Below are positions 5,927 to 54,131 of a DNA stretch of 64,000 nucleotides, in pieces. The stretch lies in assembly GCF_000189635.1 (NCBI RefSeq), contig NW_002476287.1, positions 1 through 64,000 on the forward strand. Reading direction: 5' to 3'. This DNA comes from Tetrahymena thermophila SB210 (taxonomy: Eukaryota > Ciliophora > Oligohymenophorea > Hymenostomatida > Tetrahymenidae). Every line of letters begins with the position of its first letter. Position 1 is the first letter of the stretch. The position numbers and the translations under genes were made by a program. Below the pieces are notes generated by a model, which did not search any database, had not been told where the DNA came from, and worked only from the letters and a program-made list of their open reading frames with translations.

Positions 5927-7822
<1,896 letters not shown>

Positions 7823-16240: not shown

Positions 16241-19200
16241 TGGCAATTAAATTGGTGATACATACATACATACATACTCGCACATGGTTACATGCACTCG
16301 GGATAGGGGCCCTATATATAATTACTTATACATTATTATTATACGTATACCAATTTATTTATATATAATTGTGGGTAATATACTAGAAGGGAAGGGTCAC
16401 CTACACCCTAATGGCATTTCTACTAATCTTCCATGATTTGACTACGCATTATGCTCGCTTCCCATTTGTATTCCAGATCTTCTGTTCAGAATGGGGCCTC
16501 CTCTTTACCTCCTATCAGATTTGGCCCTTCCCTCCTACCAAGGAGACCGCTGGTAACATTCACATTTTTACATGGAATTTTTCGAAATAAAGGGGGCGGT
16601 ATAGGATTCGAACCCCCGATATCACTGCTAAGACCCTCCGACTCGCCCACTCGAGTCGCTTAGCCCTTCTAAATTGGTGATGAAGGAGCATCAGGCTTAG
16701 GTTCTGCTTTAGCAAATTGCATTAATCTCTCAAATTTGAAACTTAAACTTGGGTAAAAACAGTTTATTTGTTTTGGATTGTGATATATTTTTAATTATAA
16801 AAACTAATTAAAAACAATAAAGCTCCTTTTTCTTTTTCTTTTTCTTTTTCTTTTTATTGTTCTTGTTTTTATTTTCTTTCTATGTTAATTTAACTCATCA
16901 TTTTATTTTTAAATTTTGCTTTTATTATTAATTAATCTTATTATTTCATATTAATTCTTCATTTTTTCCTTCTAATTAACTATTTAATGATATATTTTTT
17001 CTTCAATATTTAAAAAGCAACAATTAAATTGGTGATGAAGGTGTATCAGGCTTAGGTTCTGCTTTAGCAAATTGCATTAATCTCTCAAATTTAACACTTT
17101 AACTTGAGTAAAAACAGTTTATTTGTTTTGGATTGTGATATTTTTAATTATAAAAACTAATTATAAGGAATAAAGCTCTTTTTTGTTTTTCTTTTTATTG
17201 TGCTTGCTTTTTTTTGTACTTTCTTTGTTTATTTAATTCATCATTTTATTCTCAGCTATTTCTTTTATTTTCAATTAATTAATCTTATCATTTCATATTT
17301 TTCTTGATTTTTCCCTTCTAATTAACTATTTAATGAAATATTTTTTCTTCAATATTTAAAAAGAGGCAATTAAATTGGTTCATTGGGTGCATCAGGCTTA
17401 GGTTCTGCTTTAGCAAATTGCATTAATCTCTCAAATTTGACACTTGACCTTGAGTAAAAACAGTTTATTTGTTTTGGATTGTGATATTTTTAATTATAAA
17501 AACTAATTAAAAACAATAAAGCTCCTTTTTCTTTTTCTTTTTATTGTTTTTTCTTTGTTAATTTAATTCATCATTTTATTTTCAACTTTTGCTTTTATTA
17601 TTAATTAATTAATCTTATTTTTCATATTATTTTCTTAATTTTTTCCTTCTAATTAACTATTTAATAATATATTTTTTCTTCAATATTTAAAAAGTGGAAA
17701 TGAAATTGGTGCAATGGGTGTATCAGGTTTAGGTTCTGCATTAGCAAATTGCATTAATCTCTCAAATTTAACACTTTACCTTAAGTAAAAACTGTTTATT
17801 TGTTTTGGATTGTGATATTTTTAATTATAAAAACTAATTAAAAGCAATAAAGCTCTTTTTTGTTTTTCTTTTTATCGTGGTTGCTTTTTTTTGGTTATTT
17901 CTTTGTTAATATAACTCATAATTTTATTTTTTCAATTAATTAATCTTATTATTTCATATTTTTTCTATAATTTTTCCTTCAAATTAACTATTTAATGATA
18001 TTTTTTCTTCAATATTTAAAAAGTTGTAATGAAATTGGTGCAATTGGTGCATCAGGCTTTGGTTCTGCTTTAGCAAATTGCATTAATCTCTCAAATTTGA
18101 AGCTTAAACTTATGTAAAAACAGTTTATTTATTTTGGATTGTGATATTTTTAATTATAAAAACTAATTAAAAGCAATAAAGCTCTTTTTTCTTTTTCTTT
18201 TTATTGTTCTTGCTTTTATGCTCTTTCTTTTTTAATTTAACTCATCATTTTATTTTAAATTTTTGCTTTTATTATTAATTAATTAATCTTATTATTTCAT
18301 ATTTTTTCTTCAATTTTTCCTTCTAATTAACTATTTAATGATATATTTTTTCTTCAATATTTAAAAAGTGGCAATTTAATTGGTGCAATGGGTGCAACAG
18401 GCTTATGTTCTGCTTTAACAAGTTGCATTAATCTCTCAAATTTAACACTTGACCTTTTGTAAAAATAGTTTATTTGTTTTGGATTGTGATATTTTTAATT
18501 ATAAAAACTAATTAAAAACAATAAAGCTCTTTTTCATTTTATCGTTCTTGCTTTTCTTGTTCTTTCTTTGTTAATTTAATTAATCATTTTATTTTCAACT
18601 TTTGCTTTTATTATTAATTTAATAATCTTATTATTTAATATTTTTTCTTCATTTTTTCCTTCTAATTAACTATTTAATGATATTTTTTTATTCAATATAT
18701 AAAAAGCAACAATTAAATTGGTGATGAAGGTGCATCAGGTTTAGGTTCTGCTTTAGCAAATTGTATTAATCTCTCAAATTTGGAACTTTGGCTTGGGTAA
18801 AAACAGTTTATTTGTTTTAGATTGTGATATTTTTAATTATAAAAACTAATTAAAAACAATAAAGCTCCTTTTTCTTTTTATCGTTCTTGTTTTTCTTGTT
18901 CCTTCTTGTTAATTTAATTCATCATTTTATTTTCAACTTTTGCTTTTATTATTAATTAATTAATCTTATTATTTAATTTTTTTTTTTTTTCATTTTTTCC
19001 TTCAAATTAACTATTTAATGATATATTTTTTATTCAATATTTAATAAGTAACAATTAAATTGGTGATAAAGGTGCATCAGGCTTAAGTTCTGCTTTAGCA
19101 AATTGCACTAATCTCTCAATTTTGACACTTAGCCTTAGGTAAAAATAGTTTATTTGTTTTGGATTGTGATATTTTTAATTATAAAAACTTATTATAAACA

Positions 19201-21104
19201 ATAAAGCTCCTTTTTCCTTTTATTTTTCTTGCTTTTTTTCTTCTTTTTCTGTTTATTTAACTCATCATTTTATTTTTAATTTTTTCTTTTATTATTAATT
19301 AATTAATCTTATTATTTCATATTTTTTTTTCATTTTTTCCTTCTAATTAACTATTTAATAAAATATTTTTTCTTAAATATTTAAAAAGTATCAATTAAAT
19401 TGGTGATGAATGTGCATCAGGCCTAGGCTCTGCTTTAGCAAATTGCATTAATCTCTCAAATTTGACACTTTACCTTGAGTAAAAATAGTTTATTTGTTTT
19501 GGATTGTGATATTTTTAAATATTAAAACTAATTAATAACAATAAAGTTTTTTTTTTTAAACGTTCATGCTTTTCTTGTTCTTTCTTTGTTAATTTAATCC
19601 ATCATTTTATTTTCTATTTTTGCTTTTATTGTTAATTAATTAATCTTATTATTTCATATTATTTCTTCATTTTTTCTTTCTAATTAACTATTTAATGATA
19701 TATTCATTCTTCAATATTTAAAAAGTTACAATTAAATTGGTGCAATGGGTGCATCAGACTTAGGTTCTGCTTTAGCAAATTGCATTAATATCTCAAATTT
19801 GACACTTTACCTTGGGTTACCACAGCTTAATTATTTTGGATCGTAATATTTTTAATTATAAAAACTAATTGAGCTTGCTTTTTTTTTGTCTTTTTCTTTG
19901 TTAATTTAACTCATAATTTTATTTTCAATTTTTGCTTTTATTATTAATTATTATTTCATATTATTTCTTCATTTTTTCCTTCTAATTAACTATTTAAGGA
20001 TATATTTTTTCTTCAATATTTAAAAAGTGGCAATTAAATTGGTGATGAAGGTGTATCTGGCTTAGGTTCTGCTTTAGCAAATTGCACTAATCTCTCAATT
20101 TTGACACTTAGCCTTTTGTAAAAATAGTTTATTTGTTTTGGATTGTGATATTTTTAATTATAAAAACTAATTAAAAGCAATAAAGCTCTTTTTTGTTTTA
20201 CTTTTTAATGTGATTGCTTTTTTTTTGTTCTTTCTTTGTTAATTTAACTCATCATTTTATTTTTAATTTTTACTTTTATTATTAATTAATTAAATTATTT
20301 CATTTTTTCCTTCTAATTAACTATTTAATGATATATTTTCAATATTTAAAAAGTGACAATTAAATTGGTGATGAAGGTGCATCAGGTCTAGGCTCTGCTT
20401 TAGCGAAATGCATTAATCTCTTAAATTTGACACTTTACCTTGAGTAAAAACAGTTTATTTGTTTTGAATTGTGATATTTTTAATTATAAAAACTAATTAA
20501 AAGCAATAAAGCTCTTTTTTGTTTCTCTTTATTGTGGTTGCTTTTTTTGTTCTTTCTTTGTTAATATAACTCATAATTTTATTCTCAACTATTACTTTTA
20601 TTTTCAATTAATTAATCTTATTATTTCATATTATTTCTTCATTTTTTCCTTCTAACTAACTATTTAATGATATATTTTTTCTTCAATATTTAAAAAGAGG
20701 CAATTAAATTGGTGAGGAAGGTGCATCAGGCTTAGGTTCTGCTTTAGCAAATTGCATTAATCTCACAAATTTGACAGTTTCCCTTGAGTAAAAACAGTTT
20801 ATTTGTTTTGGATTGTGATTTTTTAACTATAAAAATGAATATAAAACAAAAAAGGTCTATAAAATTATTTGATAGCTTTTATTTGATTTATTTTTTTATC
20901 TTTTTTATTCCACAAATTTATTTTATTTATTAATTTAAGAAATAATTTTTAATTTAAAAGTTTATTCATTTTGATATTTATTTAAAATTTAAACTAAAAA
21001 ATTATAAAATTTTTAGCTCAATGAATGAATCATAAGAATTGAAAATAATAAGTAAGTATCTTAAATCAAAAAGATTAGTTGTCTTTGAGATATAATTCTT
21101 ATGA
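16241..21104 (+). CDS. LRR gene B (13 LRR exons plus conserved last exon; start not found)
   Basis: LRR exons: 16241-16259 joined logically to 16682-16752 (split by an insertion), then 17018-17107, 17364-17453, 17695-17784, 18024-18113, 18369-18458, 18707-18796, 19049-19138, 19389-19478, 19726-19815, 20028-20117, 20354-20443 and 20698-20787. Every intact exon is exactly 90 nt with phase-2 borders. Each encodes one RNI-type LRR, for example N-Q-I-G-D-E-G-A-S-G-L-G-S-A-L-A-N-C then NLSNLTLDL. The last exon, 21017-21104, gives SMNESQELKIISKYLKSKRLVVFEIQFL and TGA. I read no in-frame TGA in the intact exons. The first exon seen is broken by a SINE, but skipping it would keep frame. A start codon or N-terminal domain was not identified upstream, so it may be a 5'-truncated gene or have a distant first exon. 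Confidence 0.7.
16260..16681 (-). mobile_element. GC-rich tRNA-derived SINE in LRR exon, with 11-bp target duplication
   Basis: About 411 bp inserted after nucleotide 19 of an LRR exon. AAATTGGTGAT flanks it on both sides (16249-16259 and 16671-16681). On the minus strand it starts at 16670 with a tRNA-like head: an A-box-like GACTCGAGTGG and a perfect B-box GGTTCGAATCC, inside a strong fold (CGACTCG/CGAGTCG, GCTAAG/CTTAGC). A unique body follows, then a 3' end, GAGTGCATGTAACCATGTGCGAG, and a (TATG)n tail. Much of it is near 50% G+C against roughly 20% around it, so it did not arise from local DNA. The head recalls a class-II tRNA (Ser/Leu type) but does not fold as a proper tRNA. The 3' end is shared with five other insertions in the window. 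Confidence 0.85.
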
Positions 21105-21520
21105 TATACAAGTGGCGAAAAAAGGATGAATAAATATTAAATGTTTCAATAATGTTTTATATTTTATTTTTCAATATTTTGAAAAAGTTTATTTAACCAA
21201 AAATATAAATAGATACATAGATAGATATTTAAATTTTATTATTGATTTTTTATTTATAAATGTTGTTCATATTTTTGGTGGTTAATAAATTATTTGTAAA
21301 AAATAAAAAATTTAAAAATTAAATTTACTTCAATATATTAATTCCTCTTAAGCAAGCCCTACGGTTTCTCCAAAAACGATCAAATAATTTGAAACTTTTA
21401 GTGTTAGATTATATCTTATTAAATTATATACCGTAGATTACCATATAAGTCATATAAGTCGCAAAAAAAAAGTTTGCAGAATTTTGATTTTTTATTAATT
21501 AATTTATTACTATAATTTTT
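21105..21520. other. 3' flank of LRR gene B
   Basis: AT-rich sequence homologous to the flanks of genes A, C and D. It includes TCTCCAAAAACGATCAAATAATTTG (about 21365), shared with gene A's flank. It ends near 21430-21480 with TACCGTAGATTACC and a duplicated CATATAAGT. Confidence 0.5.
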
Positions 21521-22150
21521 TCAAATTTAACTAAATATTCATCTCTAATTCCTACTATATTTTTAAGTTAATGTTTTAAATAAAAATATTAACATGAAGT
21601 AATTAATTTTAAATTAATATTTCTGTGATATCTTTTCATAAAACCAAATAAATTAATATTTGATAATTAATTATTATATTTTATTTGTTCTTTTTATCCA
21701 TTTATAATTAATTAAAATCCATAATTTGCTATTCAATATTTATTTTTGAAAAAAAAAAAAATGATATAATTGATTAAAAAATATTACAATTTAAAAGAAG
21801 TAATTATTTATTTTTTTATTAATATCATGTAAAGTTATATTTATTAATATAAAAAGTTAACAAACTCTTCAATTTTATCTTATTAGGTTCTCCATATTTA
21901 TCTGAGGTATATTTTATTAATTAATATTATTATTGTTATTTATTAATATTTTTAAATATTTAACTTTCAATTTATTTAAATAAATTATTTTTATTATAGA
22001 AATTATCATCCATGATTAATTTTGATTTATATTGAAACAAATATTATTTAGCTATCTTAACTTAATTTTCATTTCAATTTTTAATTATTTAATAATCATT
22101 TATTATTTGATATTTTTTCTTCATTATTTGCTATTATAACTTGTGCTTAA
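21520..22150 (+). repeat. Upstream module of LRR gene C (copy 2 of 4)
   Basis: Homologous to 15215-16010 but starting later within the module. Same order of landmarks, ending in the truncated intron CTTAATAAAAACAGTTTATTTG. Confidence 0.6.
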
Positions 22151-22397
22151 TAAAAACAGTTTATTTGTTTTGGATTGTAATATTTTAATAATAAAAGTTA
22201 ATTTAAAACATTAAAGCTCTTTTTTTTTTTATTTTTCTTGCTTTTATTGTTCTTTCTTTGTTAATTTAACTCATCATTTTATTTTCAACTTCTGCTTTTA
22301 TTATTAATTAATAAATCTTATTATTTCATATTTTTTCTTAATTTTTTCCTTTTAATTAACTATTTAATGATATATTTTTTCTTCAATATTTAAAAAG

Positions 22398-25300
22398 TGA
22401 GAAATAAATTGGTGATGAAGGTGCATCAGGCTTAGGCTCTTGTTTAGCAAAGTGCATTAATCTCTCAAATTTGACACTAGAACTTAAGTAAAAACATTTT
22501 ATTTGTTTTGGATTGTGATATTTTTAATTATAAAAACTAATTAAAAACAATAAAGCTCCTTTTTCTATTTATTGTTCTTTCTTTATTAATTTAACTCATT
22601 ATTATATTTTCAATTTTTGCTTTTATTATTAATTAATCTGATTATTTCATATTTTTTCTTAATTTTTTCCTTCTAATTAACTATTTAATGAATGATATAT
22701 TTTTTCTTCAATATTTAAAAAGTTAGAATTAAATTGGTTATGAAGGTGTATCAGGCTTAGGTTCTGCTCTAGCAAATTGCATTAATCTCTCAAATTTGAC
22801 ACTTAATCTTTGGTAAAAATAGTTTATTTATTTTGGATTGTGATAATTTTAATTATAAAAACTAATTAAAAACAATAAAGCTCCTTTTTCTTTTTCTTTT
22901 TATTGTTCTTGCTTTTTTTGTTCTTTCTTTATTAATTTAACCCATCATTTTATTTTCAATTTTTGCTTTTATTATTAATTAATTGATCTTATTATGATAT
23001 ATTTTTTCTTCAATATTTAAAAAGTGGAAATCAAATTGGTGCAATGGGTGCATCAGGCTTAGGTTCTGCTTTAGCAAATTGCATTAATCTCTCAAATTTA
23101 ACACTTGATCTTAGGTAAAAATAGCTTATTTGTTTTGGATTGTGATATTTTTAATTATAAAAACTAATTAAAAACAATAAAGCTCCTTTTCTTTTTCTTT
23201 TTCTTTTTATTGTTTTTGATTTTTTTGTTCTTTTTTGTTAATTTAACTCATCATTATATTTTCAAATTTTGCTTTTATTATTAACTAATTAATCTGATTA
23301 TTTCATATTTTTTCTTCATTTTTTTGTTCTAATTAACTATTTAATAATATATTTTTTGTTTTATATTTAAAAAGTTACAATAAAATTGGTGCGATGGGTG
23401 CATCAGGCTTAGGTTCTGTTTTAGCAAATTGCATTAATCTCTCGAATTTGACACTTAACCTTTAGTAAAAACAGTTTATTTGTTTTGGATTGTGATATTT
23501 TTAATTATAAAAACAATAAAATTCTTTTTTATTTTTCTTTTTATTGTGCTTGCTTTTTTTTGTTATTTCTTTGTTAATTTAACTTATCATTTTATTTTCA
23601 GTTTTTATTAATTAATCTTATTTATTATTTCATATTTTTTCTTCATTTTTTTCGTTCTAATTAGCTATTTAATGATATATTTTTTATTTTATATTTAAAA
23701 AGTGGAAATGAAATTGGTGCAGAATAGAATAGAAATACTCGCACATATAAACATGCACTCAGAATACAACTTAAATATAAAATTAAATTAAATTATATTA
23801 TATTATTTATATATATATATATTTTTTTTTTATCGTTATTTGTGTTTATTTATTATTGTTAAAGTTTTTGGAAAGTTTTTTTTTTTGAAATTGGTGCATT
23901 GGGTGCATCAGGCTTATGTTCTGCTTTAGCAAATTGCATTAATCTCTCAAATTTAACACTTGATCTTAGGTAAAAATAGCTTATTTGTTTTGGATTGTGA
24001 TATTTTTAATTATAAAAACTAATTAAAAACAATAAAGCTCCTTTTTCTTTTTCTTTTTATTGTTCTTGCTTTTTTTGTTCTTTTTTGTTAATTTAACTCA
24101 TCATTATATATTCAACTTTTGCTTTTATTATTAATTAATTAATCTTATTATTTCATATTTTTTCTTCATTTTTTTGTTCTAATTAACTATTTAATGATAT
24201 ATTTTTTGTTTTATATTTAAAAAGCTACAATGAAATTGGTGCGATGGGTGCATCAGCCTTAGGTTCTACTTTTGCAAATTATATTAATCTCTCAAATTTA
24301 ACACTTGACCTTAGGTAAAATTAGTTTATTTGTTTTGAATTGTGATATTTTTAATTATAAAAACTAATTAAAAACAATAAAGCTCCTTTTCTATTTTTTG
24401 TTCTTTCTTTGTTAATTAAACTCATCATTTATTTTCAAATTTTGCTTTTATTATTAATTAATTAATCTGATTATTTCATATTTTTTCTTCATTTTTTTGT
24501 TCTAATTAACTATTTAATGATATTTTTTTTTGTTTAATATTTAAAAAGTTACAATAAAATTGGTGCAATGGGTGCATAAGGATTAGGTTCTACTTTAGCA
24601 AATTGCATTAATCTTTCAAATTTAACACTTGACCTTAGGTAAAATTAGTTTATTTGTTTTGGATTGTGATATTTTTAATTATAAAAACTAATTAAAAACA
24701 ATAAAGCTCCTTTTTCTTTTTATTGTGCTTGCTTTTTTTTTGTTCTTTCTTTTTTTATTTAACTTATCATTTTATTCTCAGCTATTAGTTTTATTTTCAA
24801 TTAATTAATCTTATTATTTCATATTTTATTTGATTTTTCCCTTCTAATTAACTATTTAATGAAATATTTTTTCTTCAATATTTAAAAAGAGGCAATTAAA
24901 TTGGTGCAATGGGTACATCAGGCTTAGGTTCTGCTTTAGCAAATTGCATTAATCTCTCAAATTTAACACTTGAACTTAGGTAAAATATTTTATTTGTTTT
25001 GGATTGTGATATTTTTAATTATAAAAACTAATTAAAAACAATAAAGCTCCTTTTTCTTTTTTTTTTTTATTGTTCTTGTTTTTTTTTTGCTCTTTCTTTG
25101 TTAATTTAATTCATAATTTAATTTTCAAATTTTGCTTTTATTATTTATTAATCTTATTATTTCAATCATATTTTTTCTTCATTTTTTTCTTGTAATTAAC
25201 TATTTAATGATATATTATTTGTTCAATGTTTAAAAAGTGGAATTTAAATTGGTGATGGAATGGAATGGAATTTACTCGCACATGAAACATGCACTCAGAA

Positions 25301-27708
25301 AACATCTTAAAAATAATTTTTTTATTTATTCATTTATTTATATATTTTTTTTATATTATTTTTATTTTATTTTTTTTATATTTATTTTTATAAATATTTT
25401 TTTTATATTTATTTTACTTTTTTTTCAATATTTAAAAAGTAAAATTTAAATTGGTCCAATGGGTGCATCAGGCTTAGGTTCTGCTTTAGCAAATTGTATT
25501 AATCTCTCGAATATAACACTTTAACTTTAGTAAAAATAGTTTATTAGTTTTGGATTGTGATATTTTTAATTTATAAAACTAATTAAAAACAATAAAGTTC
25601 TGTTTTCTTTTTATTGTTCTTGCTTTTTTTGTTCTTTCTTTGTTAATTTAACTCATCATTTTATTTTAAAATTTTGCTTTTATTATTAATTAATTAATCT
25701 TATTATTTCATATTTTTTCTTAATTTTTTCCTTCTAATTAACTATTTAATGATATATTTTTTCTTCAATATTTAAAAAGTGGAAATAATATTGGTGATAG
25801 AATAGAATAGAAATACTCGCACATATAAATATGCACTCAGAATACATCTTAATTATAATATTTTAAATTATTTATATTAATATTTTTTTTGTTTTTTATT
25901 GTTTTTTATTTTTATTTATTCATTTATTTATATTTGTGTTTAAACACATTCATTTTCTTTTTTTTTTAATAGACAATATATTTTTAAAAAGACTCTGTCA
26001 AAAAAATTAAAAAATTTGTTAAAAATTAAATCGTAGATTTAAAATTTAAGTGTAACGCGCAGCGAATTTAAAAATAAAAGTGTGTTATTCGTGAAGCCTG
26101 AGATAATTCCAACAATACCGTTGGTCTAGATTATCTTACTTAGTATCTAGATTCTTCTAAAATTATTGATTTATAGGGGTGGAGCTTCAGGAGCAGCAGC
26201 AGCAGCAGCGGCATTTACGATTTTCTCTAAGTCTTTTTTATAAAAAATTGTGTCTAGTAAAATAAAATATTGGTGATGATGGTGCATCAGGTTTAGGCTC
26301 TGCTTTAGCAAATTGCATTAATCTCTCAAATTTAACACTTGAGCTTCGGTAAAAATAGTTTATTTGTTTTGGATTGTGATATTTTTAATTATAAAAACTA
26401 ATTAAAGACAATAAAGTTCTTTTTTCTTTTTATTTTTATTGTGCTTGCTTTTTTTTTATTCTATCTTTGTTAATTTAACTCATCATTTTATTTTCAAATT
26501 TTAGTTTTATTATTAATTAATTAATCTTATTATTTCATATTTTTTCTTCATTTTTTCCTTCTTATTAACTATTTAATGATATATTATTTGTTCAATATTT
26601 AAAAAGTGCATGTTAAATTGGTGATGAAGGTGCATCAGGCTTAGGTTCTGCTTTAGTAAATTGTATTAATCTCTCAAATTTGACACTTGATCTTAGGTAA
26701 AAATAGTTTATTTGTTTTGGATTGTGATATTTTTAATTATAAAAACTAATTAAAAACAAAAAAGTTCTTTTTTTTTTTATTTTTATTGCGCTTGCTTTTT
26801 TTTTATTCTTTCTTTGTTTATTTAACTCATCATTTTATTTTCAAATTTTACTTTTATTATTAATTAATTAATCTTATTATTTCATATTTTTTCTTCATTT
26901 TTTTGTTCTAATTAACTATTTAATGATATATTTTTTGTTTTATATTTAAAAAGCTACAATGAAATTGGTGCGATGGGTGCATCAGCCTTAGGTTCTGCTT
27001 TAGTAAATTACATTAATCTCTCAAATTTGACACTTAATCTTGGGTAAAAATAGTTTATTTGTTTTGGATTGTGATATTTTTAATTATAAAAACTAATTAA
27101 AAACAATAAAGCTCTATTTTCTTTTTCTTTTTATTATACTTGCTTTTTTTTGTTCTTTCTTTATTTATTGAACTCATCATTTTATTTTCAATTTTTGCTT
27201 TTATTATTAATTAATCTTATTATTTCATATTTTTTCTTCATTTTTTCTTTCTAATTAACTATTTAATGATATTTTTTTTGTTCAATATTTAAAAAGTGGA
27301 AATAAAATTGGTGAAATGGGTACATCAGGCTTAATTTCTGCTTTATCAAATTGCATTAATCTCTCAAATTTAAGACTTGGCATTAGGTAAAAAGAATTTA
27401 TTTGTTTTGGTTTGTGATATTTTTAATTATAAAAATGAATATAAAGCAAAAAAGCTCTTTGAACTTTTTTGATAGCTTTAATTTGATTTATTTTTTTATC
27501 TTTTTGATTACACAAATGTATTTTATTTATTAATTTACGAAATCACTTTTAATTTAAAAGTTTATTCTATTTTGATATTTATTTAAAATTTACACTAATT
27601 TATAATAAAAGTTTTAGATCAATGAATGTATCATAAAAATTCAAAGTAATAAGGAAGTGTATTAAATCAAAAAGATTGGTTGTCTTTAAAATGATGAATT
27701 ACTTGTGA
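22398..27708 (+). CDS. LRR gene C (about 14 LRR exons, three hit by insertions)
   Basis: LRR exons: 22398-22487, 22723-22812, 23025-23114, 23375-23464, 23703-23721 + 23899-23969 (split), 24225-24314, 24549-24638, 24890-24979, 25238-25256 (truncated), 25440-25529, 25780-25798 + 26278-26348 (split), 26607-26696, 26954-27043 and 27297-27386. Last exon 27618-27708 ends KCIKSKRLVVFKMMNYL, TGA. Intact exons are all 90 nt in phase 2. The split exons add up to exactly 90 nt when the insertion and one target-site copy are removed. Each exon gives one RNI-type LRR. Some copies carry private changes (for example GASALGSTFANYINL at 24225), so the repeats are diverging. No start found; the gene may be a pseudogene or may skip the damaged exons. 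Confidence 0.65.
23722..23898 (-). mobile_element. Short retroposon in LRR exon, 13-bp target duplication
   Basis: A 164-bp insert after nucleotide 19 of the exon. TGAAATTGGTGCA occurs at 23709-23721 and 23886-23898. The end next to the exon start is (GAATA)n then AATACTCGCACAT...CATGCACTCAGAATAC. Read on the minus strand, this is a 3' end followed by an ATTCT-repeat tail. The body is AT-rich, and TTTTTTT at its other border would be poly(A) at the 5' side or a truncation. Confidence 0.75.
25257..25425 (-). mobile_element. Retroposon copy with rearranged far end
   Basis: Begins after nucleotide 19 of exon 25238 with (GGAAT)n, TTTACTCGCACATGAAACATGCACTCAG, the shared 3' end. The far border is unclear: about 25415-25439 already resembles the intron end before the next exon (TTCAATATTTAAAAAG). 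The rest of the hit exon is missing, which suggests unequal recombination after insertion. No clean target duplication. Confidence 0.6.
25799..26265 (-). mobile_element. 467-bp retroposon in LRR exon, 12-bp target duplication, with a coding-like body
   Basis: AATATTGGTGAT, a variant seen only in this exon, flanks the insert at 25787-25798 and 26266-26277. The exon-proximal end is (AGAAT)n AAATACTCGCACATATAAATATGCACTCAG, as in its relatives. The 5' half (minus strand, about 26215 down to 26000) is less AT-rich. It stays open for about 65 codons with TAA/TAG read as Gln: an Ala run from GCT repeats, PEAPPL, NNFRRI, NGIVGIISGF, NSLRVTLKF. It could be a captured gene piece or part of a longer element. 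Confidence 0.75.
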
Positions 27709-28625
27709 AAAAAGGATGAATAAATATTTTATATTTGAAAAATATTATATATTTTTATATAATATTTTGAAAAAATTTATTTAACCTAAAATATAAATAG
27801 ATAGATAGACTTTAAATTTATAAATATGTTTATATTTTTAGAAGTAATGATAATATCTATTTAATAATATTGTGTATTTTTTCATTGCATCTTCAATATC
27901 AACTGTATGTATAACAAATAATTTTTAGATGATCAATTTAATTATAAATATTCATATAATTAATTACATAGCTTAAAAGAAAAATCTACTGATGAAGATT
28001 ATTTTTATAAAATTTAAGAACATTAATTAATTAATTACCAGTATTTTTCAAATATGACTAACTAGTCATCTCTAATTCCTACTATATTTTTAAGCATATG
28101 TTTTAAATACAAATATTAAGATTAAATAATTAATCTTAAATTAATTTTTCTGTGATATCTCTTCATAAAACCAAATCTTTATAATTAATTAAATTCCATA
28201 ATTGCTATTCAATATTTTTTGAGTAAATATAAATGATATAATAGAATAAATATTACAATAGATTAGAAGAAGTAATTATTTATTTTTTTATTAATATAAT
28301 TTAAATTTAAATATATTAATAAAAAAAGTTTATAAACTCTTCACTTTTATCTCATTAGGTTCTGCTTATTAATCTCTAGTATATTTTATTAATTAATATT
28401 ATTTTTTTTATTTATTAATATTTTTTATATTTTTAACATTCAATTTATTTAAATAAATTATTTTTCTTAGAGAAATTATCATCACTACTTATTTATTTTT
28501 ATTAAAACAAACATTATTTAGCTATCTTAACTTAATTTTCATTTTCATTTTTAATTATTTATTCATTTTTTATTATTTGATATTTTTTCTTTATTTTTAG
28601 CTATTAAAACTTACACTTAATAAAA
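27709..28625 (+). repeat. 3' flank of gene C and upstream module of gene D (copy 3 of 4)
   Basis: To about 27850 it matches the 3' flanks of the other LRR genes (GTGAAAAAAGGATGAATAAAT). From about 27880 it is very like 15215-16010 (TTGCATCTTCAATATCAACTG, then TCATCTCTAATTCC, then TTATCTCATTAGG) up to CTTAATAAAAGTAG at 28620. The B-C and C-D junctions have the same order, so the loci form a tandem gene array. Confidence 0.65.
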
Positions 28626-28837
28626 GTAGTTTATTTCTTTTGGATTGTAATATTTTTAATAACAAATGTTCATTTAAAACACTAAAGCTCTTTTAATTTA
28701 TTTTCCTTTTTCTTTTTTTTTTTTCATTATTTGTTAATTTTACTAATTATTAATTAAACATATTATTTAATATTTTTCTTCATTTTTTCCTTCTAATTAA
28801 CTATTTAATGATATATTTTTTTTCAATATTTAAAAAG

Positions 28838-31800
28838 CGACAAATAAATTGGTGATGAAGGTGTATCAGGTTTATGCTCTGCTTTAGCAAATTGCATTAA
28901 TCTCTCAAATTTGAAACTTTAGCTTGAGTAAAAACAGTTTATTTGTTTTGGATTGTGATCTAATTAAAAATAATAAAGCTCTTTTTTCATTTTCTTTTTA
29001 TTGTTCTTGCTTTTTTGTTCTTTCTTTGTTAATTGAACTCATCATTTTATTTTCAATTTTTGCTTTTATTTTAATTAATTAATCTTATTATTTCATACTT
29101 TTACTTCATTTTTTCCTTCTAATTAACTATTTAATAATATATTTTTTCTTTAATATATAAAAAGTTACAATTAAATTGGTGCAATTGGTGCATTAAGCTT
29201 AGGCTCTGCTTTAGCAAATTGCATTAATTTCTCAAATTTGACACTTGATCTTCGGTAAAAACTGTTTATTTGTTTTGGATTGTGATATTTTTAATTATAA
29301 AAACTAATTAAAAACAATAAGGCTCCTTTTTCTTTTTCTTTTTATTGTTCTTGTTTTTATGTTTTATATTTGTTAATTTAATTCATCGTTTTATTTTCAA
29401 AATTTGCCTTTATTATTAATTAATTAATCTTATTATTTCATTTTTTCCTTCAAATTTACTATTTAATGATATATTTTTTCTTAAATATTTAAAAAGTATG
29501 AATGAAATTGGAGATGAAGGTGTATTAGGCTTAGGTTCTGCTTTAGCAAATTGCATTAATCTCTCAAATTTGACATTTGATCTTCGGTAAAAATAGTTTA
29601 TTTGTTTTGGATTGTGATATTTTTTATTATAAAAACTAATTAAAAATAATAAAACACTTTTTTCTTTTTATTGTTCTTGCTTTTTTTTTGTTCTTTCTTT
29701 GTTAATTAATCTTATTTTTCATATTATTTCTTCATTTTTTCCTTCTATTTAACTATTTAATAATATATTTTTTCTTCAATATTTAAAAAGTTACAATTAA
29801 ATTGGTTCAAAAGGTGCATCAGGCTTATGTTCTGCTTTAGCAAATTGCATTAATCTCTCAAATTTGACACTTGATCTTCGGTAAAAACAGTTTATTTGTT
29901 TCGGATTGTGATATTTTTAATTATAAAAACTAATTAAAAAAAATATAGATCCTATTTCTTTTTATTGTTCTTGCTTTTTTTGTTCTTTCTTTATTAATTT
30001 AATTCATCATTATATTTTCAATTTTTGATTTTATTATTAATTGATTAATCTTATTTTTCTTATTATTTCTTCATTTTTTCTTTCTAATTAACTATTTAAT
30101 GGTATATTTTTTCTTCAATATTTAAAAAGTTACAATTAAATTGGTGATGAAGGTGTATAAGGCTTAGGTTCTGCTTTAGCAAATTGCATTAATCTCTCAA
30201 ATTTGACACTTTACCTTAGGTAAAAACAGTTTATTTGTATTGGGTTGTGACATTTTTTATTATAAAAATTAATTAAAAACAATAAAGCTTCTTTTTCTTT
30301 TTCTTTTTCTTGCTTTTTTTGTTCTTTCTTTGTTAAATTGACTCATCATTTTATTTTCAACTCTTGCTTTTATGTTTAATTAATCTTATTATATCATATT
30401 ACTTCTTAATTTTTTCCTTTTTTCTAATTAACTATTTAATGATATATTTTTTCTTTAATATTTAAAAAGTGATAATTAAATTGGTGCAATGGGTGCATCA
30501 GACTTAGGTTCTGCTTTAGCAAACTGTATTAATCTCTTAAATTTGATACTTGACCTTATGTAAAAACAGTTTATTTGTTTTGGATTGTGATATTTTTAAT
30601 TATAAAAACTAATTAAAAACAATAAAGTTCCTTTTTCTTTTTGTTTTTATTGTTCTTTCTTTGTTAATTGAACTCATAATTTTATTTTCAATTTTTGCTT
30701 TTATTATTAATTAATTAATCTTATTTTTTCATATTATTATTTCATTTTTTCCTTCTAATTTACTATTTAATGATATATTTTTTCTTCAATATTTAAAAAG
30801 TTCCAATCAAATTGGTGCAATGGGTGCATCAAGATTAGGTTCTGCTTTAGCGAATTGCATTAGTCTCTCAAATTTGACACTTTACCTTAGGTAAAAACAG
30901 TTTATTTATTATGGATTGTGATATTTTTAATTATAAAAACTAATTAAAACAATAAAGTTCCTTTTTCTTTTTATTGTTCTTGCTTTTTTTGTTCTTTCTT
31001 TATTAATTTTCCTCATCATTTTATTTTTAATTTTTGTTTTATTATTAATTAATAAATCTTATTATTTTATATTTTTTCTTCATTTTTTCCTTCAAATTAA
31101 CTATTTAATGATATATTTTTGCTTCAATATTTAAAAAGTTACAATTAAATTGGTGATTGAATTGAATTGAAATACTCGCACATAGATATGCACTCAGAAT
31201 ACATCTTATTTTAAATATATTTGTAATAGTTTACATTATTATTTTTGTTTTTTTTCTTTTTAGTGTTTATAATGTATATAAACACATTCATTTTTATAAT
31301 TATTAAAGAAAAGCCTATTAGTGAGGTGGTTTGACCTCTCACTAATAAGGCAAAATGTGTTCAGGTTCGAGACCTGATTTTGGCAAAATTTATTTTGCCA
31401 TTCATTTTAAAATTAAATAAATTTCATTCAAAAAATGAATGAAAAAATAAAAGGCAAACCTCATTCAAATTTGAATGAGAATGATAATATATGCCTTTTC
31501 ATTCAAAAAATGAATGACAGAATATTACAATAATTTTCATTCAAATTTGAATGAAAATAAAAAAATGGTTCTGCCATTCAAAAATGAATGAAAATAAAAA
31601 ATTTGCTATAAAAATATTTTATTTGTTTTGGATTGTGATATTTTTAATAATAAAAACTAATTAAAAACAATAAAGCTCCTTTTTCTTTTTATCGTTTTTT
31701 CTTTTTTAATTTAATTCATCATTTTATTTTCAATTTTTAATTTTATTATTAATTAATTAATCTTATTATATCATTTTTTTTCTTCATTTTTTCCTTCTAA

Positions 31801-32340
31801 TTAACTATTTAATGATATATTTTTTCTACAATATTTAAAAAGTAAAAATTAAATTGGTGCAATAGGTGAATCAGGCTTAGGTTCTGCTTTAACAAATTGT
31901 ATTAATCTCTCAAATTTGACACTTTACCTTGGGTAAAAACAGTTTATTTGTTTTTGACTGTGATATTTTTAATTATAAAAACTAATTAAAATCAATAAAG
32001 TTCTTTTTTCTTTTTATTATCCTTGCTTTTTTTTTTGTTCTTTTTTTGTTAATTTATCCCAACATTGAATTCTCAACTTTTATTTTCAATTAATTAATCT
32101 TATTATTTCATATTTTTTCTTCAATATTTAAAAAGTAACAATTAAATTGGTGCAATGGGTGCATCAGACTTAGGTTCTGCTTTAGCAAATTGCATTAATA
32201 TCTCAAATTTGACACTTTACCTTGGGTAAAAACAGTTTATTTGTTTTGAATTGTGATATTTTTAATTATAAAAACTAATTAAAAACAATAAAGTTCTTTT
32301 TTCTTTTTCTTTTTATTATGCTTGCTTGCTTCTTTTTTTT

Positions 32341-32400
<60 letters not shown>

Positions 32401-34423
32401 TGTTAATTGAACTCATCATTTTATTTACAACTTTTGCTTTTATTATTAATTAAGTAATTTTATTATTACATATTATTTCTTCATTTTTTCCTTCAAATTA
32501 ACTATTTAATGATATATTTTTTCTCCAATATTTAAAAAGTGATAATTAAATTGGTGATGAAGGTACATCAGGCTTAGGTTCTGCTTTAGCAAATTGCATT
32601 AATCTCTCAAATTTGACTCTTGATCTTTGGTAAAAATAGTTTATTTTTTTTGATTGTGGTATTTTTAATTATAAAAACTAATTAAAAATAATAAAGCTGC
32701 TTTTTTTTTCTATTTATCGTTCTTGCTTTTTTTGTTCTTTCTTTGTTAATTTAACACATCATTTTATTTTAAATTTTTCCTTTTATTATTAATAAATTAA
32801 TCTTATTATTTCATTTTTTCATTCTAATTAACTATTTAATGATATATTTTTTCTACGTTATTAAAAAAGTGGCAATTTAATTGGTGCAATGGGTGCATCA
32901 GCCTTAGGTTCTGCATTAGCAAATTGCATTAATATCTCAAATTTGACACTTTATCTTGAGTAAAAACAGTTTATTTGTTTTAGATTGTGATATTTTTAAT
33001 TATAAAAACTAGGGTTGGGAATCGATTAAAATTTTTTAGGTCGAGTTATTTTTTAATTTTTTAGGTTCTGCTTTAGCAAATTGCATTAATCTCTCAAATT
33101 TGACACTTAACCTTAGGTAAAAACAGTTTATTTGTTTTGGATTGTGGTATTTTTAATTATAAAAACTAATTAAAGACAATAAAGCTCTTTTTTCTTTTTC
33201 TTCTTATTGTGCTCGCTTTTTTTGTCTTTTTCTTTGTTAATTTAACTCATCATTTTATTTTCAACTTTTGCTTTTATTATTAATTAATTAATCTTATTTT
33301 TTCATATTATTTCTTCATTTTTTCCTTCAAATTAACCATTTAATGATATATTTTTTCTTCAATATTTAAAAAGCGGTAATTAAATTGGTGATGAAGGTAC
33401 ATCAGGCTTAGGTTCTGCTATAGCAAATTGCATTAATCTCTCAATTTTGACACTTAACTTTAGGTAAAAATAGTTTATTTATTTTGAATTGTGATATTTT
33501 TAATTATAAAAACTAATTAAAAACATTAAAGCTCCTTTTTCTTTTTATTGTTCTTGCTTTTTTTGTTCTTTTAACTCATCATTTTATTTTTAATTTTTTC
33601 TTTTATTACTAATTAATTAATCTTATTATTTCATTTTTTCCTTCTAATTAACAATTTAATGATATATTTTTTTTCAATATTTAAAAAGTGGCAATTAAAT
33701 TGGTGCAATGGGTGCATCAGGCTTAGGTTCAGCTTTAGCAAATTGCATTAATCTCTCAAATTTGACACTTTATCTTGAGTAAAAACAGTTTATTTGTTTT
33801 GGATTGTGATATTTTTAATTATAAAAACTAATTAAAAGCAATAAAACTCTTTTTTGTTTTTCTTTTTATTGTGCTTGCTTTTTTTTTTGTTCTTTCTTTG
33901 TTAATTTAACTCATCATTTTATTTTTCAATTAATTAATCTTATTATTTCATATTTTTTCTTCATTTCTTCCTTCTAATTAATTATTTAATGATATATTTT
34001 TCTTCGATATTTAAAAAGTAACAATTAAATTGATTATGAAGGTGCATCAGGCCTAGGCTCTGCTTTAGCAAATTGCATTAATCTCTCAAATTTGGAAGTT
34101 TGGCTTGAGTAAAAACAGTTTATTTGTTTTGGATTGTGATTTTTTAAATATAAAAATGAATATAAAACAAAAAAGCTCAATAAATTTATTTGATAGCTTT
34201 TACTTTATTTATTTTTTATCTTTTTTATTCCACAAATTTATTTTATTTATTAATTTAAGAAATAATTTTTAATATAAAAGTTTATTCATTTTATATTTAT
34301 TTAAAATTTAAACTAATCTATTATAAAATTTTTAGCTCAATCAATGATGCATAAGAATTGAAAATAATAAACAAGTATCTTAAATCAAAAAGATTAGTTG
34401 TCTTTGAGATATAATACTTATGA
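28838..34423 (+). CDS. LRR gene D (about 16 LRR exons, two damaged)
   Basis: LRR exons: 28838-28927, 29165-29254, 29497-29586, 29791-29880, 30130-30219, 30470-30559, 30801-30890, 31139-31157 (truncated by an insertion), 31843-31932, 32136-32225, 32540-32629, 32870-32959, about 33061-33117 (5' end lost), 33374-33463, 33689-33778 and 34019-34108. Last exon 34336-34423 ends NKYLKSKRLVVFEIQYL, TGA. Intact exons are 90 nt, phase 2, one RNI-type LRR each. The 33061 exon has lost its start. The intron before it contains a short foreign-looking patch (GGGTTGGGAATCGATT) and no acceptor that keeps frame, so this unit must be skipped if the gene is functional. No start exon found. Confidence 0.65.
31158..31604 (-). 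mobile_element. Retroposon copy carrying structured insert; exon remainder deleted
   Basis: Starts after nucleotide 19 of exon 31139 with (TGAAT)n, then AAATACTCGCACATAGATATGCACTCAGAATAC, the shared 3' end. Further on it carries a block of hairpins (see 31316-31600). It then joins directly to LRR intron sequence at about 31605 (ATATTTTATTTGTTTTGGATTG), so the last 71 nt of the exon are gone. The far border has no target duplication. Confidence 0.6.
31316..31600. repeat. Hairpin block: tRNA-like T-arm plus five palindromes
   Basis: TTAGTGAG...CTCACTAA forms a long stem (31320-31348). Next comes TCAGG TTCGAGA CCTGA, a perfect T-arm-like hairpin with a B-box-like GGTTCGAGACC. Then five palindromes alternate between CATTCAAAAAATGAATG and CATTCAAATTTGAATG types, spread over about 31415-31590. 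The tRNA-like signals are on the plus strand, opposite to the retroposon tail, so this may be a nested insertion. It does not fold as a full cloverleaf. Confidence 0.55.
32341..32401 (+). repeat. (TTTC)15 microsatellite in an LRR intron
   Basis: About 61 bp of unbroken TCTT/TTTC repeats replace the usual pyrimidine tract in this intron of gene D. Other copies have only 2-4 repeats, so this is a local slippage expansion. Confidence 0.9.
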
Positions 34424-49209: not shown

Positions 49210-50319
49210 ATGTATCCCTAATAACCTTATCAGTAATACCCTTAACAACCTCAAGTGTATCCTCAACAGCCTCAAGGATATCCTCCACAATAGCCTTAGA
49301 TGTACCCCTAGTAGCCCCAAATGCATCCTTAGTAGTACCCTTAACAAGGACCTTACTAATAATATCCTTAACAACCTCAAATGCATCCCTAATAGCCCTA
49401 TCCCTAACAATAATATCCTTAGTAGCCATAAACATGCCATTAATAAAATAATAGCTGCTAACGTCCTAAATACAATAAATATCAGAACTAACCTCCTACA
49501 GAAGAATAGCTAAAAAGAGACCAAGAAATGCTTGAAAAAGGTTAAAACATGATGTCAAAAGGAGTGGATAGTATGAATGCAGCTATGGATAAATTTATGA
49601 ATTTTAATAGCAATGCTACTCAATAGTAAGTAGGAGGCATGCCTGGAGGTATGTAAGGAGGAATGTTCGGAATGGGTGGCATGTAAGGAGGAATGTTCGG
49701 AATGGGTGGCATGTAAGGAGGAATGTTTGGAATGGGTGGCATGTAAGGTGGAATGTTTGCAAATAAGAACAACTAAAGTGAAGCTTCCAATAATAATAGT
49801 TTAAGCTAAAGCTCTTATAACTCAAAAAATCCTTACACTAACAGTTTACCAACTGCAACAAACAGAAGTGAAGTAAAAGGAAAAGATGATCACGAAAACT
49901 CAACATTTTTTGATCACCTGTAATAGTAGGGTGTTAAGAGTACTCCTGTTTATCCTCATTTGAATAGCATTAAGATTTATCACACTGATAACATGATAGT
50001 GGGTATTGAATGCACATACAAATTTAAGGGTGAGAATTCTATTGTAGGACCATTTGTTAGTAAAGGTACTTTTAATGGAGATGTATAAACAAAAGAATTT
50101 TAGTTGTAATACGGAGAAAGCATTTCTGAAATTTCAGGTAGATGTGGTGACTCTATTGACCGTTTGATGATTAAGACAGACAAAGGAAACTGTATTGAAG
50201 TTGGAGGAAATGGTGGCTCTCCTTTCTCAAATATAGTAAAATCTGTTTATAATCCTCTTATTGGATTTGGTGGATCTACTCGTGAATTCTTAGATTCACT
50301 ATACATTGTTTATCTTTGA
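49210..50319 (+). CDS. Jacalin-like lectin protein with YPQQP-repeat N-terminus (369 aa)
   Basis: A single frame of 370 codons. Residues 1-80 are Pro/Gln/Tyr repeats (YPQQP, QPQMHPQQ, QGYPPQQ), where most Gln are TAA/TAG/CAA codons. Next is a short helical part (EEQLKRDQEMLEKGQNMMSKGVDSMNAAMDKFM). After it come four copies of GGMQGGMFGM (about 140-185), a Ser/Asn linker, and a C-terminal jacalin-type beta-prism domain (about 240-369). That domain shows LNSIKIYHTDNMIVGIECTYKF, QLQYGESISEISGRCGDSIDRLMIKTDKG, GGNGGSPFS and LIGFGGSTREFLDSLYIVYL; the last is the usual end of the fold. Jacalin domains bind sugars. No signal peptide seen, so the protein may be cytosolic or leave by another route. 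Open frames on the opposite strand at 49141-49825 are shadows of the repeats. Confidence 0.88.
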
Positions 50320-51134
50320 TTTTTCAAAAAAGGATCATTAAATAATTTATTTAATTTTATTATTTAAGAATATTTTTATTTTACTCGTTTTGTTTTTTGG
50401 ATTTTCAAATTTAAATTTATCAATTCTAAAAACCAAAAATTTTTTCTAAATTTCAGCTTTCGTATTCAATTTAATATTTTGATAAAGTGAAAATATATAT
50501 ATTTTCCTTTAAATATTAAGTTTAAATTAAATTATTGTCATTATAGATTAAATAAATATTTTTATGTATTATTTTTTAAAAATTTAGATAAATGCAAAGC
50601 AACTTTATAATATTTTAATTAATATAGTTAAACTTGAATAATTAATGTCTACATTAAATTTGTTGACAAATTCTATAAATAAATAAATTAAAAAAATAGT
50701 TAAATACTTCAAAATTAGTTTTAAATATTATTATTATTATGTATTTATGTTTCTGGATTAATAATTTTATTTAATTATTTATTTAAATTTTAATCCTTTT
50801 TTCAGTAATAAGATCAGGTCGTTTTAGGTAGAATTTAAGAGCATACTTATTAATAGGTGTAGATATTTGCATCTTAACACAAATTTTAAATTAAAAAATT
50901 AAATAATTAAAATTTTTTATTTCAGAATTTTGTCAAAACTCTTGATTTTTGAGTACGAAAATTTTTCAAAAAAAAGACACGTTATATAAATGAATGCATG
51001 ATTTATATTATTTCAAATTTTACATTGTGAATTTACAGATTTTTAAAAACTCAAAAATAATGCTATTTTAAGCTTTATTTGATAAATAATTAAGATATAT
51101 TTTTTTTTCGCCTTTTGTAAATTAAATAGGCATT
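50320..51134. other. Intergenic between convergent genes
   Basis: AT-rich. From about 51000 it resembles the 3' flank of the LRR genes (inverted). No gene or clear signal otherwise. Confidence 0.4.
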
Positions 51135-54131
51135 TCACTGTATTTTAAAGATAACTAATCTTTTTGATTTAAGACACTTGCTTTTTACTTTCAATTTTTA
51201 TGATCCATTGATTTAATTATAACTTTTATTTTTCAATTAAAATAAAATACTAAAAAAAATTAAATAGAATAAAATTTTTTAAATAAAAATTATATTTTAA
51301 ATTAATAAAAAAAAACATTAACAGAATAAAAAAGAAAAAGAAAAAAACATATTGAAAAATTAAAAGAGCTATCTTTTTTAAATTTAATTTTATAAAATAT
51401 CGCAATCCAAAACAAATAAACAGTTTTTACGTAAGATCAAGTGTCAAATTTGAGAGATCAGTGCAATTTGATAAAGCAGAACTTAAATCTGATGCACCAA
51501 TCACACTAATTTAATTCCAACTTTTTAAATATTGAAGAAAAAATATATAATTAGTTATTTATTTAGAAGGAAAAAATAAAGAAAAAATATGAAATAAGAA
51601 ATGAATTAAATAATAATAAAAACAAATGTTGAAAATAAAAAAAATTAGTTAAATTAAGAAAGGTAAAAGAAAAAAAAACACAAATACTATCAAAATGAAA
51701 AGTAAATCAAATAAAAAACTAATAAACAAATTAAAAGAGTTATCTTTTTTTAAATTTAATTCTATAAAATATCACAATCTAAACAAATAAACTATTTTTA
51801 CCTAAGATCAAGTGTCAAATTTGAGAGATTAGTGCAATTTGCTAAAGCAGAACCTAAACCTGATGTACCTTAATCACCAATTTAATTCCAACTTTTTAAA
51901 TATTGAACAAAAAATAAATAATTAATTAGTTTTTTAAAAGGAAAAAATGAAGAAAAAATATGAGATAATAAGAAATGAATTAATATATAATAAAACCAAA
52001 TGTTGAAAATTAAAAAATGAGTTAAATTAAGAAAGATAGAAGAAAAAAACACACTAATACAATCAAAAAGAAAAAGAAAAGTAAATCAAATAAAAAGCTA
52101 ATAAACAAATTAAAAAAGTTGTCTTTTTTTCAATTCATTTTTAAAAGTAAAAATATCACAATCCTAAACAAATAAAAGGGTATTAAGTGTCAAATTTGAG
52201 AGATTAGTGCAATTTGCTAAAGCAGAACCTAAGTCTGATGTACCTTAATCATCAATTTCATTGTGACTTTTTGAATATTGAAGAAAAAATAAATAGTTAA
52301 TTAGTTATTTTGAAGGAAAAATTGAAGAAAAATTATTAAATAATAAGAGATGAATCAATAAATTATTAAAGTAAATGTTGAAAATAAAAAAAATGAATTA
52401 AATTAAGAAAGATAGAAGACAAGTACAAAAAAAAAACAAAAGAAAAGTAAAAAGAATAAAAAATAAGCAAATGAATTTGATGACTTAGATGACATTGATG
52501 ACTTTGACAACAGAAAATAAAAATGTGAATTTTAATTTAGTATGAAAAATAATAATAAAAATAAAATAAATTAAAATATATATAAACACACTAAAAAATT
52601 TAATTTTAAGTTGTATTCTGAGTGCATTTATATGTGCGAGTATTTCTATTCTATTCTGTACCAATTTAATTATTACTTTTTAATTATTGAAGAAATAATA
52701 TAGATTTATTAGTTATTTAGAAGGAAAAAATGAAGAAAAATACAAAATAATAAGAAATTAATTATATAAATAAATAAAAAAAGTAAATCTTGAAAATTAA
52801 CAAATTAGTTAAATAGATGAAGAAATAACACAAGTACAATCAAAAAGAAAAGAAAATTAAACCAAATTAAAAATTACTAAACAAATTAAAAGAGTTATCT
52901 CTCATTTCAAATCATTTTTAAAAGTATAAATATCACAATTCTAAACAAATATACTGGTTTTACCTAAGTTTTAGTGTCAAATTTGAGAGATTACTGAAAT
53001 TTGCTAAAGCAAAACCTAAGTCTGATGCACCAATTACACCAATTTAATTCCAACTTTTTAAATATTGAAGAAAAAATATATCATTAATTAATTAGTTATT
53101 TAAAAGGAAAAAATGAAGAAAAAAAAATGTGAAAAAATAAGTAATCAATTATTAAAATAAAAAAATCAGTTAAATTAAGAAAGATAGATGAAAAAAAAAG
53201 CACAAGTACAATCAAAAAGAAAAATAAAACTAAATAAAATTAAAGCTAATTAACAAATTAAACAATCCAAAACAAATAAACTGTTTTTACCTAAGATTAA
53301 GTGCCAAATTTGAGAAATTAGTGCAATTTGCTAAAGCAGAACTTAAGCCTGATACACCTTAATCACCAATTTAATTCTCACTTTTTAAATATTGAAGAAA
53401 TAATATATAATTAATTAATTAGTTATTTAGAAGGAAAAAATGAAGAAAAAATATTTATAATAAGAAATGAATTATATTATTAAATAATTTAAGCGGATGT
53501 AGAAAATAAAAAAATGAGTTAAATTAAGAAAGATAAAAGAGAAAAAAAAACACAAGTACAATTAAAAAGAAAAAGAATAGCAACTCAAATAAAAAGCTAA
53601 TCAACAAAGTAAAAGAATTATCTTGCTTTCAATTGATTTTTCAAAAGTAAAAATATCACAATCAATAACAAATAAACTGTTTTTACCAAAGATTAAGTGT
53701 TAAATTTGAGAGATTAGTGCAATTTGCTAAAGCAGAGCCTAAGTCTGATGCACCAATTGCACCAATTTAATTCCTACTTTTTAAATAAGGAAGAAAAAAT
53801 ATGAAATAGTAGGAAATGAATTAATAAATAATAAAAGCAAATATTGAAAATAAAAAAAATTAGTTAAATTAAGAAAGATAGATGAAAAAAAAAACAAAAC
53901 ATAAATAAATACAATCAAAAAGAAAAGCAAAAGTTAATCAAATAAAAAGCTAATAAATATACAAATTAAAAGGGTTTTCTTGTTTTCAATTCATTTTTAA
54001 AGTAAAAATATCGCAATCTAAAACAAATAAACTATTTTTACTTAATATCAAGGGTCAAATTTGAGAGATTAGTGCAATTTGCTAAAGCAGAACCTAAACC
54101 TGATGCATCTTAATCACCAATTTAATTCTCA
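51135..54131 (-). CDS. LRR gene E, inverted (8 LRR exons plus conserved last exon)
   Basis: On the minus strand, LRR exons: 54131-54042, 53776-53687, 53380-53291, 53053-52964, 52675-52657 (truncated by an insertion), one damaged exon about 52266-52184, then 51891-51802 and 51520-51431. Last exon 51222-51135 ends KCLKSKRLVIFKIQ, TGA, matching genes A-D. Intact exons are 90 nt and phase 2, for example WNQIGDQGTSGLGSALANC. The 52266 exon lacks a usable GT donor (GTAAAAA replaced by CCCTTTT), so it is probably skipped or dead. The upstream module (54430-54975) is shared with B-D. No start found. This gene shows more decay than A or B and may be a pseudogene. Confidence 0.6.
52470..52656 (-). mobile_element. 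Retroposon copy in inverted LRR gene E
   Basis: On the minus strand it follows nucleotide 19 of the exon at 52675-52657 with (GAATA)n, AAATACTCGCACATATAAATGCACTCAGAATAC, the same end as the copies in genes B-D. Relative to the host exon the orientation is also the same. The far border (about 52470) is not defined, and the remainder of the exon is missing. The body includes an acidic coding-like patch on the plus strand (EFDDLDDIDDFDN, about 52470-52510). Confidence 0.6.

Follow-up and report, generated by a model that had tools for sequence, protein, structure and literature searches.

Retroposon insertions at a single position in leucine-rich repeat exons of Tetrahymena thermophila: a LINE-type element and a SINE-like partner

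The 64,000-nucleotide stretch analyzed here (the window) is positions 1 to 64,000 of the forward strand of contig NW_002476287.1 of Tetrahymena thermophila SB210, and makes up nearly the whole of contig C230 (64,653 bp) of the T. thermophila macronuclear assembly (101 Mb, 445 contigs), which served as our survey genome. A reverse transcriptase protein from these contigs matches a macronuclear protein of T. thermophila SB210 at 100% identity, with 92% of the query aligned. It is A+T-rich (GC 19-27%) and carries arrays of leucine-rich repeat (LRR) exons, each of 90 nucleotides (nt), which decode with TAA as glutamine (Q), as in ciliates. A scan for exon-likeness gave 46 matches on the plus strand, a count that includes the right halves of interrupted exons, and 8 on the minus strand, with a median exon spacing of 340 bp. 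This spacing is close to the T. thermophila LRR unit of ~347 bp (90 + ~257) given by Xiong et al. 2019 (PMC6564038). The principal array or arrays extend over 16241..34110 on the plus strand (...NQIGDEGASGLGSALANCINLSNLTL...), with a match-free stretch near 20.8-22.4 kb; a group of exons at 0.3-1.8 kb lies on the same strand, and a shorter array near 51.4-54.2 kb lies on the minus strand. According to Xiong et al. (2019), nothing else contributes as much to the divergence of Tetrahymena genomes between species as the young LRR gene family, whose arrays grow by ectopic recombination.

Six LRR exons of the window are interrupted by retroposon-like insertions. An earlier note on this DNA had placed all six in one orientation relative to the exon and directly after its nucleotide 19; on re-inspection letter by letter (positions 15900-26700, 31000-31900 and 51900-52900) the coordinates and orientations are all correct, and the entry point, with nt 1 taken as the first base after the 3' splice site, holds for 6/6. 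The exon ends that precede the insertions are GGTGAT (four), GGTGCA (one) and GGTACA (one). The first insertion is a full-length short interspersed element (SINE)-like sequence of 410 bp including its tail, at 16260..16669 on the minus strand, antisense to the LRR exon. Its (ACAT)n microsatellite tail lies at 16260-16275, a 3' end shared with the other insertions at 16276-16299, and its 5' end, CCCTTC, at 16664-16669. The 12-bp target duplication TAAATTGGTGAT flanks it on the plus strand, as a left copy at 16248..16259 (exon nt 8-19) and a right copy at 16670..16681, after which the remainder of the exon follows. The other five insertions are of long interspersed element (LINE) type. A 164-bp remnant with a GAATA tail (23722..23885, minus) sits between 13-bp duplications TGAAATTGGTGCA (23709-23721 and 23886-23898), and a 467-bp remnant (25799..26265, minus) between 12-bp duplications AATATTGGTGAT (25787-25798 and 26266-26277). 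Thus the three right-hand duplications that the note had described are present, at the lengths of 13 and 12 bp it gave for the second and third, while the first is 12 bp and not 11. For the insertions at 25257, 31158 and 52656 (minus) the right half of the exon was not located, the next match being the following exon. These are a remnant with a GGAAT tail, at 25257..25430 (right limit approximate, minus), that runs on into the next intron; an insertion with a TGAAT tail, at 31158..31605 (right limit approximate, minus), that holds a tRNA-arm-like stretch; and a remnant in the minus-strand array, at 52260..52656 (limit approximate, plus), where the exon ends GGTACA at 52657.

Two of these insertions have further features. 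In the 467-bp remnant, positions 26100-26230 (minus) hold a GCTGCTGCT-rich stretch that looks coding-like by eye (KIVNAAAAAAPEAPPL). In the TGAAT-tailed insertion the tRNA T-arm-like stretch, TCAGGTTCGAGACCTGA, stands beside a long hairpin at 31300-31420; an Rfam scan of the window found no family above its gathering score. A 212-bp version of this insertion lies between 13-bp duplications at another locus, L012, and is perhaps a second SINE family.

Is the position of the six insertions a peculiarity of this contig? The tail pattern ACTCGCACATN{0,20}ATGCACTC, which demands an exact 3' end and therefore leaves out old, diverged copies, occurs 6 times in the window versus 0 in 100 shuffles, and 87 + 79 = 166 times in the genome versus 0 for the reversed-pattern control. 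We examined 131 of the 166 places; they represent 130 distinct sites, on which all junction counts are based, one site present in two overlapping loci being counted once and one identical pair on contig C50 being treated as a single site (sites were keyed by 80 nt of upstream and 60 nt of downstream sequence). The prediction that the flanks of genome-wide copies would show the same exon position is borne out, as 128 of the 130 join an LRR exon at nt 19|20, all in one orientation, the position being good to 1-2 bases of junction homology. An automatic exon score (at least 17 of 24) assigned 126 of them, and L123 and a nested copy in L080 were added by eye. By class the 130 sites comprise 37 SINE-like elements and 93 LINE-type remnants. 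Target-like sites (at most 3 mismatches of 18) number ~4,192 in the 101 Mb, versus 29 for the control, and take up ~2e-5 of stranded positions. One might think that the elements insert generally into LRR-rich chromatin, pericentromeric or subtelomeric, with selection and not targeting fixing the position; indeed, Xiong et al. (2019) found Tt.REP, a Tetrahymena non-LTR element to which we return below, and young LRR genes enriched together in both regions. However, a given position and orientation in a ~340-bp unit would be hit by chance about once in 680 insertions, against the 128 in 130 seen, and sites elsewhere number only two, so that this explanation is scarcely credible.

The SINE-like element is ~400 bp long, ends in an (ACAT)n tail and has its 3' end in common with the LINE-type remnants. 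A 446-base query found at least 42 matches, at least 36 of them near full length at 97-100% identity, the window copy included; these are lower bounds, as 40 of 59 candidates were scored. Target duplications are present at 34 of the 37 copies; at 31 sites they are of 12-13 bp and at one of 14 bp, and these stop at the same exon end. (The L052 duplication, within the 34, was settled by eye after the script had paired the next exon, and that of L063 was also found by eye.) The element is thus short, multicopy, flanked by duplications and alike with a LINE at its 3' end, the features by which a SINE is recognized. A B-box-like sequence, GGTTCGAATCC, was seen by eye on its minus strand. A tRNA origin was not confirmed, as comparison with the Rfam tRNA model gave nothing at E <= 5 and ARAGORN gave no hit. 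We also considered whether the SINE 5' end repairs the exon by providing a splice acceptor. Near the antisense 5' end an AG lies at the distance that restores a 90-nt exon in 13 of 31 measurable copies, and in frame in 16 of 31. That distance results whenever the 5' end is full-length and the duplication is of 13 bp, so that the 13 of 31 are no evidence of selection, and we rejected the idea.

Given the growth of LRR arrays by ectopic recombination (Xiong et al. 2019), the common position might be inherited, duplication and shuffling of LRR exons having spread a single ancestral insertion or a small number of them. Such events do seem to occur. Two SINE-bearing units, at C50:373602 and C50:375049, lie ~1.45 kb apart and show no difference over 140 compared nt, the probable cause being a tandem duplication of recent date that took the insertion along; and among 276 SINE pairs there are 11 in which one flank or both reach 95% identity. 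The 276 pairs come from the 24 of 37 SINE copies with the 300 bp required on each side. Their median identity is 99.2% in the body and 86% and 87% in the flanks, and the body exceeds both flanks in 262 of the 276, which refutes segmental duplication as the general cause of the SINE copies. The duplications, moreover, copy the private variants of each exon, as the earlier note had claimed, down to the rare endings GGCTAT, GGTCAT, GGTTAT, GGTGGT, GGTGTA and TTCGGGAT; and several tail classes, in both classes of element, occupy the same position. With near-identical bodies in diverged flanks and rare endings faithfully copied, the SINE copies are many independent, recent insertions and not one inherited event, the note too having argued for separate insertions. 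The comparison of flanks and bodies covered the SINE copies, and the independence it shows is theirs; for the whole set of insertions we regard ancestral spread as very improbable.

The LINE-type remnants mostly have GAATA tails, some having GGAAT, TGAAT or TGAA. A right target copy joined to the exon is present at 13 of the 91 LINE-type sites tested, and the duplications are of 12-13 bp at 11 sites. At locus L080 a SINE lies in what seems to be a regenerated target behind a LINE remnant. One open LINE-like locus, L040 (C134:179500-187500), has two open reading frames (ORFs), at 2606-5521 and 5403-7025 on the minus strand. By eye, ORF1 has a stretch that is CCCH-like. Depending on the start chosen, ORF2 encodes 917-971 amino acids; it matches RVT_1 (E 1.4e-29) and, slightly below the Pfam cut-off, Exo_endo_phos (E 4.2e-5). 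Among named proteins from other species, those of Paramecium bursaria come closest, at 33%. As the partner of the SINE we rejected this C134 element (L039/L040), which has neither an exact ACTCGCACAT tail nor an LRR exon in the 8 kb examined.

The junctions themselves bear on how the elements insert. At 113 of the 128 exon sites the repeat tail extends 1-4 nt into the target by homology (two bases in 92), at 8 it starts exactly at nt 20, and at 7 it is irregular but adjacent; a 3' repeat tail thus stands at the precise junction, abutting nt 20 or overlapping the target end by homology, in 121. Because of this homology, most junctions taken singly would allow a cut at nt 19 itself or as much as 1-2 nt before it. 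The register of the tail follows the target. Over the 126 sites used for register and base preference (L062, the nested L080 copy, L087 and L123, which score below 17, were dropped), a final T in the exon part is followed by AGAA (52), ACAT (27), GGAA (8) or TGAA (3) in 90 of 98 cases, and a final A by GAAT in 17 of 22, as expected if the last target base pairs with the tail. Nt 19 is a T in 98 of the 126 exons that were hit, compared with 162 of 334 that are intact (Fisher p 9e-9). The intact exons were collected from the window and the genomic loci examined by a pattern that fixes some bases, though not nt 18-19, and favors a GAT-bearing consensus, a bias that works against the reported preference. 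The T preference could arise at the cutting or at the priming step, and the next codon is a probable confounder. At one site (L097, C165:66149) a tail of GAT repeats continues the target's own GAT, which suggests slippage on the primer end. A 3' hairpin, GUGCAU...AUGUGC, both arms of which are fixed by the tail search pattern, is part of the minimum-energy fold in 5 of 6 tail variants, and none of the six folds clearly beats its shuffles (z -0.96 to 0.17), so that we do not claim a conserved hairpin.

A single position and orientation, target duplications and a precise 3' repeat tail are the marks of target-specific target-primed reverse transcription, and it is highly probable that a LINE and a SINE-like partner with a common 3' end insert by this route at one position of the LRR exon. 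An endonuclease would nick the exon's coding strand at the codon boundary after nt 19 (AAATTGGTGAT^GAA) or, where the end of the target resembles the tail, perhaps 1-2 nt earlier. The freed 3' end would prime reverse transcription on the microsatellite tail of the element, aided by one or two base pairs between the end of the target and the tail, and a cut in the other strand 12-13 bp upstream would produce the duplication of exon nt 7/8-19. Since both classes share the 3' end, the target position and the 12-13-bp duplications, we infer a single endonuclease, the SINE presumably borrowing the LINE machinery through the common 3' end. What makes LRR exons so favorable? They would offer a renewable and tolerant target: there are thousands of copies, and each exon, at 90 nt and with a phase-2 intron on either side, can be left out without a shift of frame, so that a broken one could be skipped.

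Several observations weigh against this proposal. Two of the 130 sites lie outside LRR exons, L062, which ends TTAAATTAGAAAT and matches the target at 10 of 13 positions, and L087, which ends CGGAGAT. At 78 of the 91 LINE-type sites there is no right-hand copy joined to the exon (61 without any match of 8 nt or more, 17 with matches to the following exon or to non-exon sequence), at most 460 nt of downstream sequence having been examined in 30 of 94 LINE-type records; the missing copies may have been lost by excision during macronuclear development. In L080 there are two base differences between the left and the middle copy of the target. The autonomous LINE with the same 3' end and an endonuclease, whose existence the earlier note had anticipated, was not found in the macronuclear assembly, and the 8 kb examined around the sole RVT_1 match there, on C134, hold no exact tail. 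Macronuclear copies may, finally, be a biased sample of germline insertions.

How much of the exon is recognized? On a narrower version of the target-primed scheme the endonuclease would recognize only a short motif, about AAATTGGTGAT, and LRR exons would be hit as its main holders, an explanation to which we give slightly less than an even chance. The motif occurs 1,917 times, versus 123 for the reversed pattern, so that LRR exons would dominate the hits anyway, and the resemblance of the off-target site L062 to the target fits as well. However, many hit exons depart from the motif and yet keep the position (67 of 126 end GGTGAT), and none of the 130 sites is at an exact motif off the LRR exons, though few would be expected there. 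The count of this 11-mer is compatible with motif-only and with longer recognition alike.

The LINE at the LRR-exon site is very probably Tt.REP, a germline non-LTR element of T. thermophila. Xiong et al. (2019) counted 169 macronuclear copies of its 54-bp tail, versus 166 tails here, and found 76% of Tt.REP to colocalize with LRR units, with which our sites agree. By their account most of the element is kept out of the macronucleus, and the S30 legend assigns it an ORF1 with a zinc finger and an ORF2 with reverse transcriptase plus endonuclease (PMC6564038). The association of gene family and retroelement is thus on record. Xiong et al. (2019) took LRR introns to be the favored targets, and the S31 legend places remnants inside one long intron; the present sequence, in contrast, puts the junction at a fixed exon position. 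The two would be reconciled if the disrupted exon is skipped, as it would then be annotated as intron. The SINE-like partner at the same site comes from the present analysis, and the words 'SINE', 'target site', 'insertion site' and 'tRNA' are absent from the main text of that paper. A word check of the germline genome paper (PMC5182062) covered 'leucine' and 'SINE', neither of which occurs there as a whole word ('LRR' lay outside the check), and at title and abstract level we found no report of this insertion site. The exact position, the duplications and the SINE partner are thus unreported in the literature examined, although Xiong et al. (2019) credit Fillingham 2004, which may have priority, with a first glimpse of LRR targeting.

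Targeting to one exon position is much sharper than the published link between REP and LRR genes, and where there was a 'physical association' it puts a mechanism whose substrate can be named exactly, 12-13 bp of a coding exon. It also provides a way to ask whether the nick of a retroelement helps to build a young gene family. It is conceivable, though we think it unlikely, that REP and the SINE use the LRR exon as a niche while their site-specific nick drives LRR expansion, the insertions being tolerated as the exons can be skipped. If so, cutting one position in thousands of exons would provoke unequal exchange and gene conversion, much as a homing endonuclease does, each insertion would be borne because its exon is a skippable, in-frame 90-nt module, and parasite and gene family would grow together.

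How do these elements compare with known systems? The earlier note had likened them to R1/R2 elements, which use rDNA as a niche. The notion of target-specific retroelements with a niche of their own stands, given one site and one orientation; the likeness to rDNA elements fares less well, as a trypanosome system is closer. Two classes of element, moreover, share the site. Nor are they members of R1/R2, their target being an LRR coding exon and not rDNA. Among target-specific non-LTR elements, the sections of PMC4640811 and PMC12278014 that deal with targets list rDNA for R1/R2, spliced-leader RNA genes for CRE/SLACS (CRE in both sources) and U2 snRNA for Utopia (PMC4640811). Like the Tetrahymena elements, these are non-LTR elements that enter a multicopy gene at one position; their targets, however, are RNA genes or other repeats, whereas the Tetrahymena target is a protein-coding exon. 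LINE/SINE pairs of the UnaL2 type, in which the SINE has the 3' end of the LINE and 3' tail repeats, resemble the Tetrahymena pair in just these two respects. To our knowledge UnaL2-type pairs are generally not target-specific, and the Tetrahymena pair differs from them in sharing a target position. The closest precedent is that of ingi, a LINE, and RIME, a SINE, at a hot spot in the RHS genes of Trypanosoma (Bringaud 2002, as summarized in PMC7563717). As in Tetrahymena, an autonomous element and a short non-autonomous one share a single coding-region hot spot in an expanded protein family, and in the summary of PMC7563717 the insertions create pseudogenes, to which we liken the Tetrahymena case. 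The lineage is a different one, and an RHS gene has one hot spot per gene, whereas the LRR genes have one per exon module. We know of no exon array in RHS genes that could skip the damage. The Tetrahymena pair is, then, a further case of retroelements specialized on a protein-coding sequence, here an exon module.

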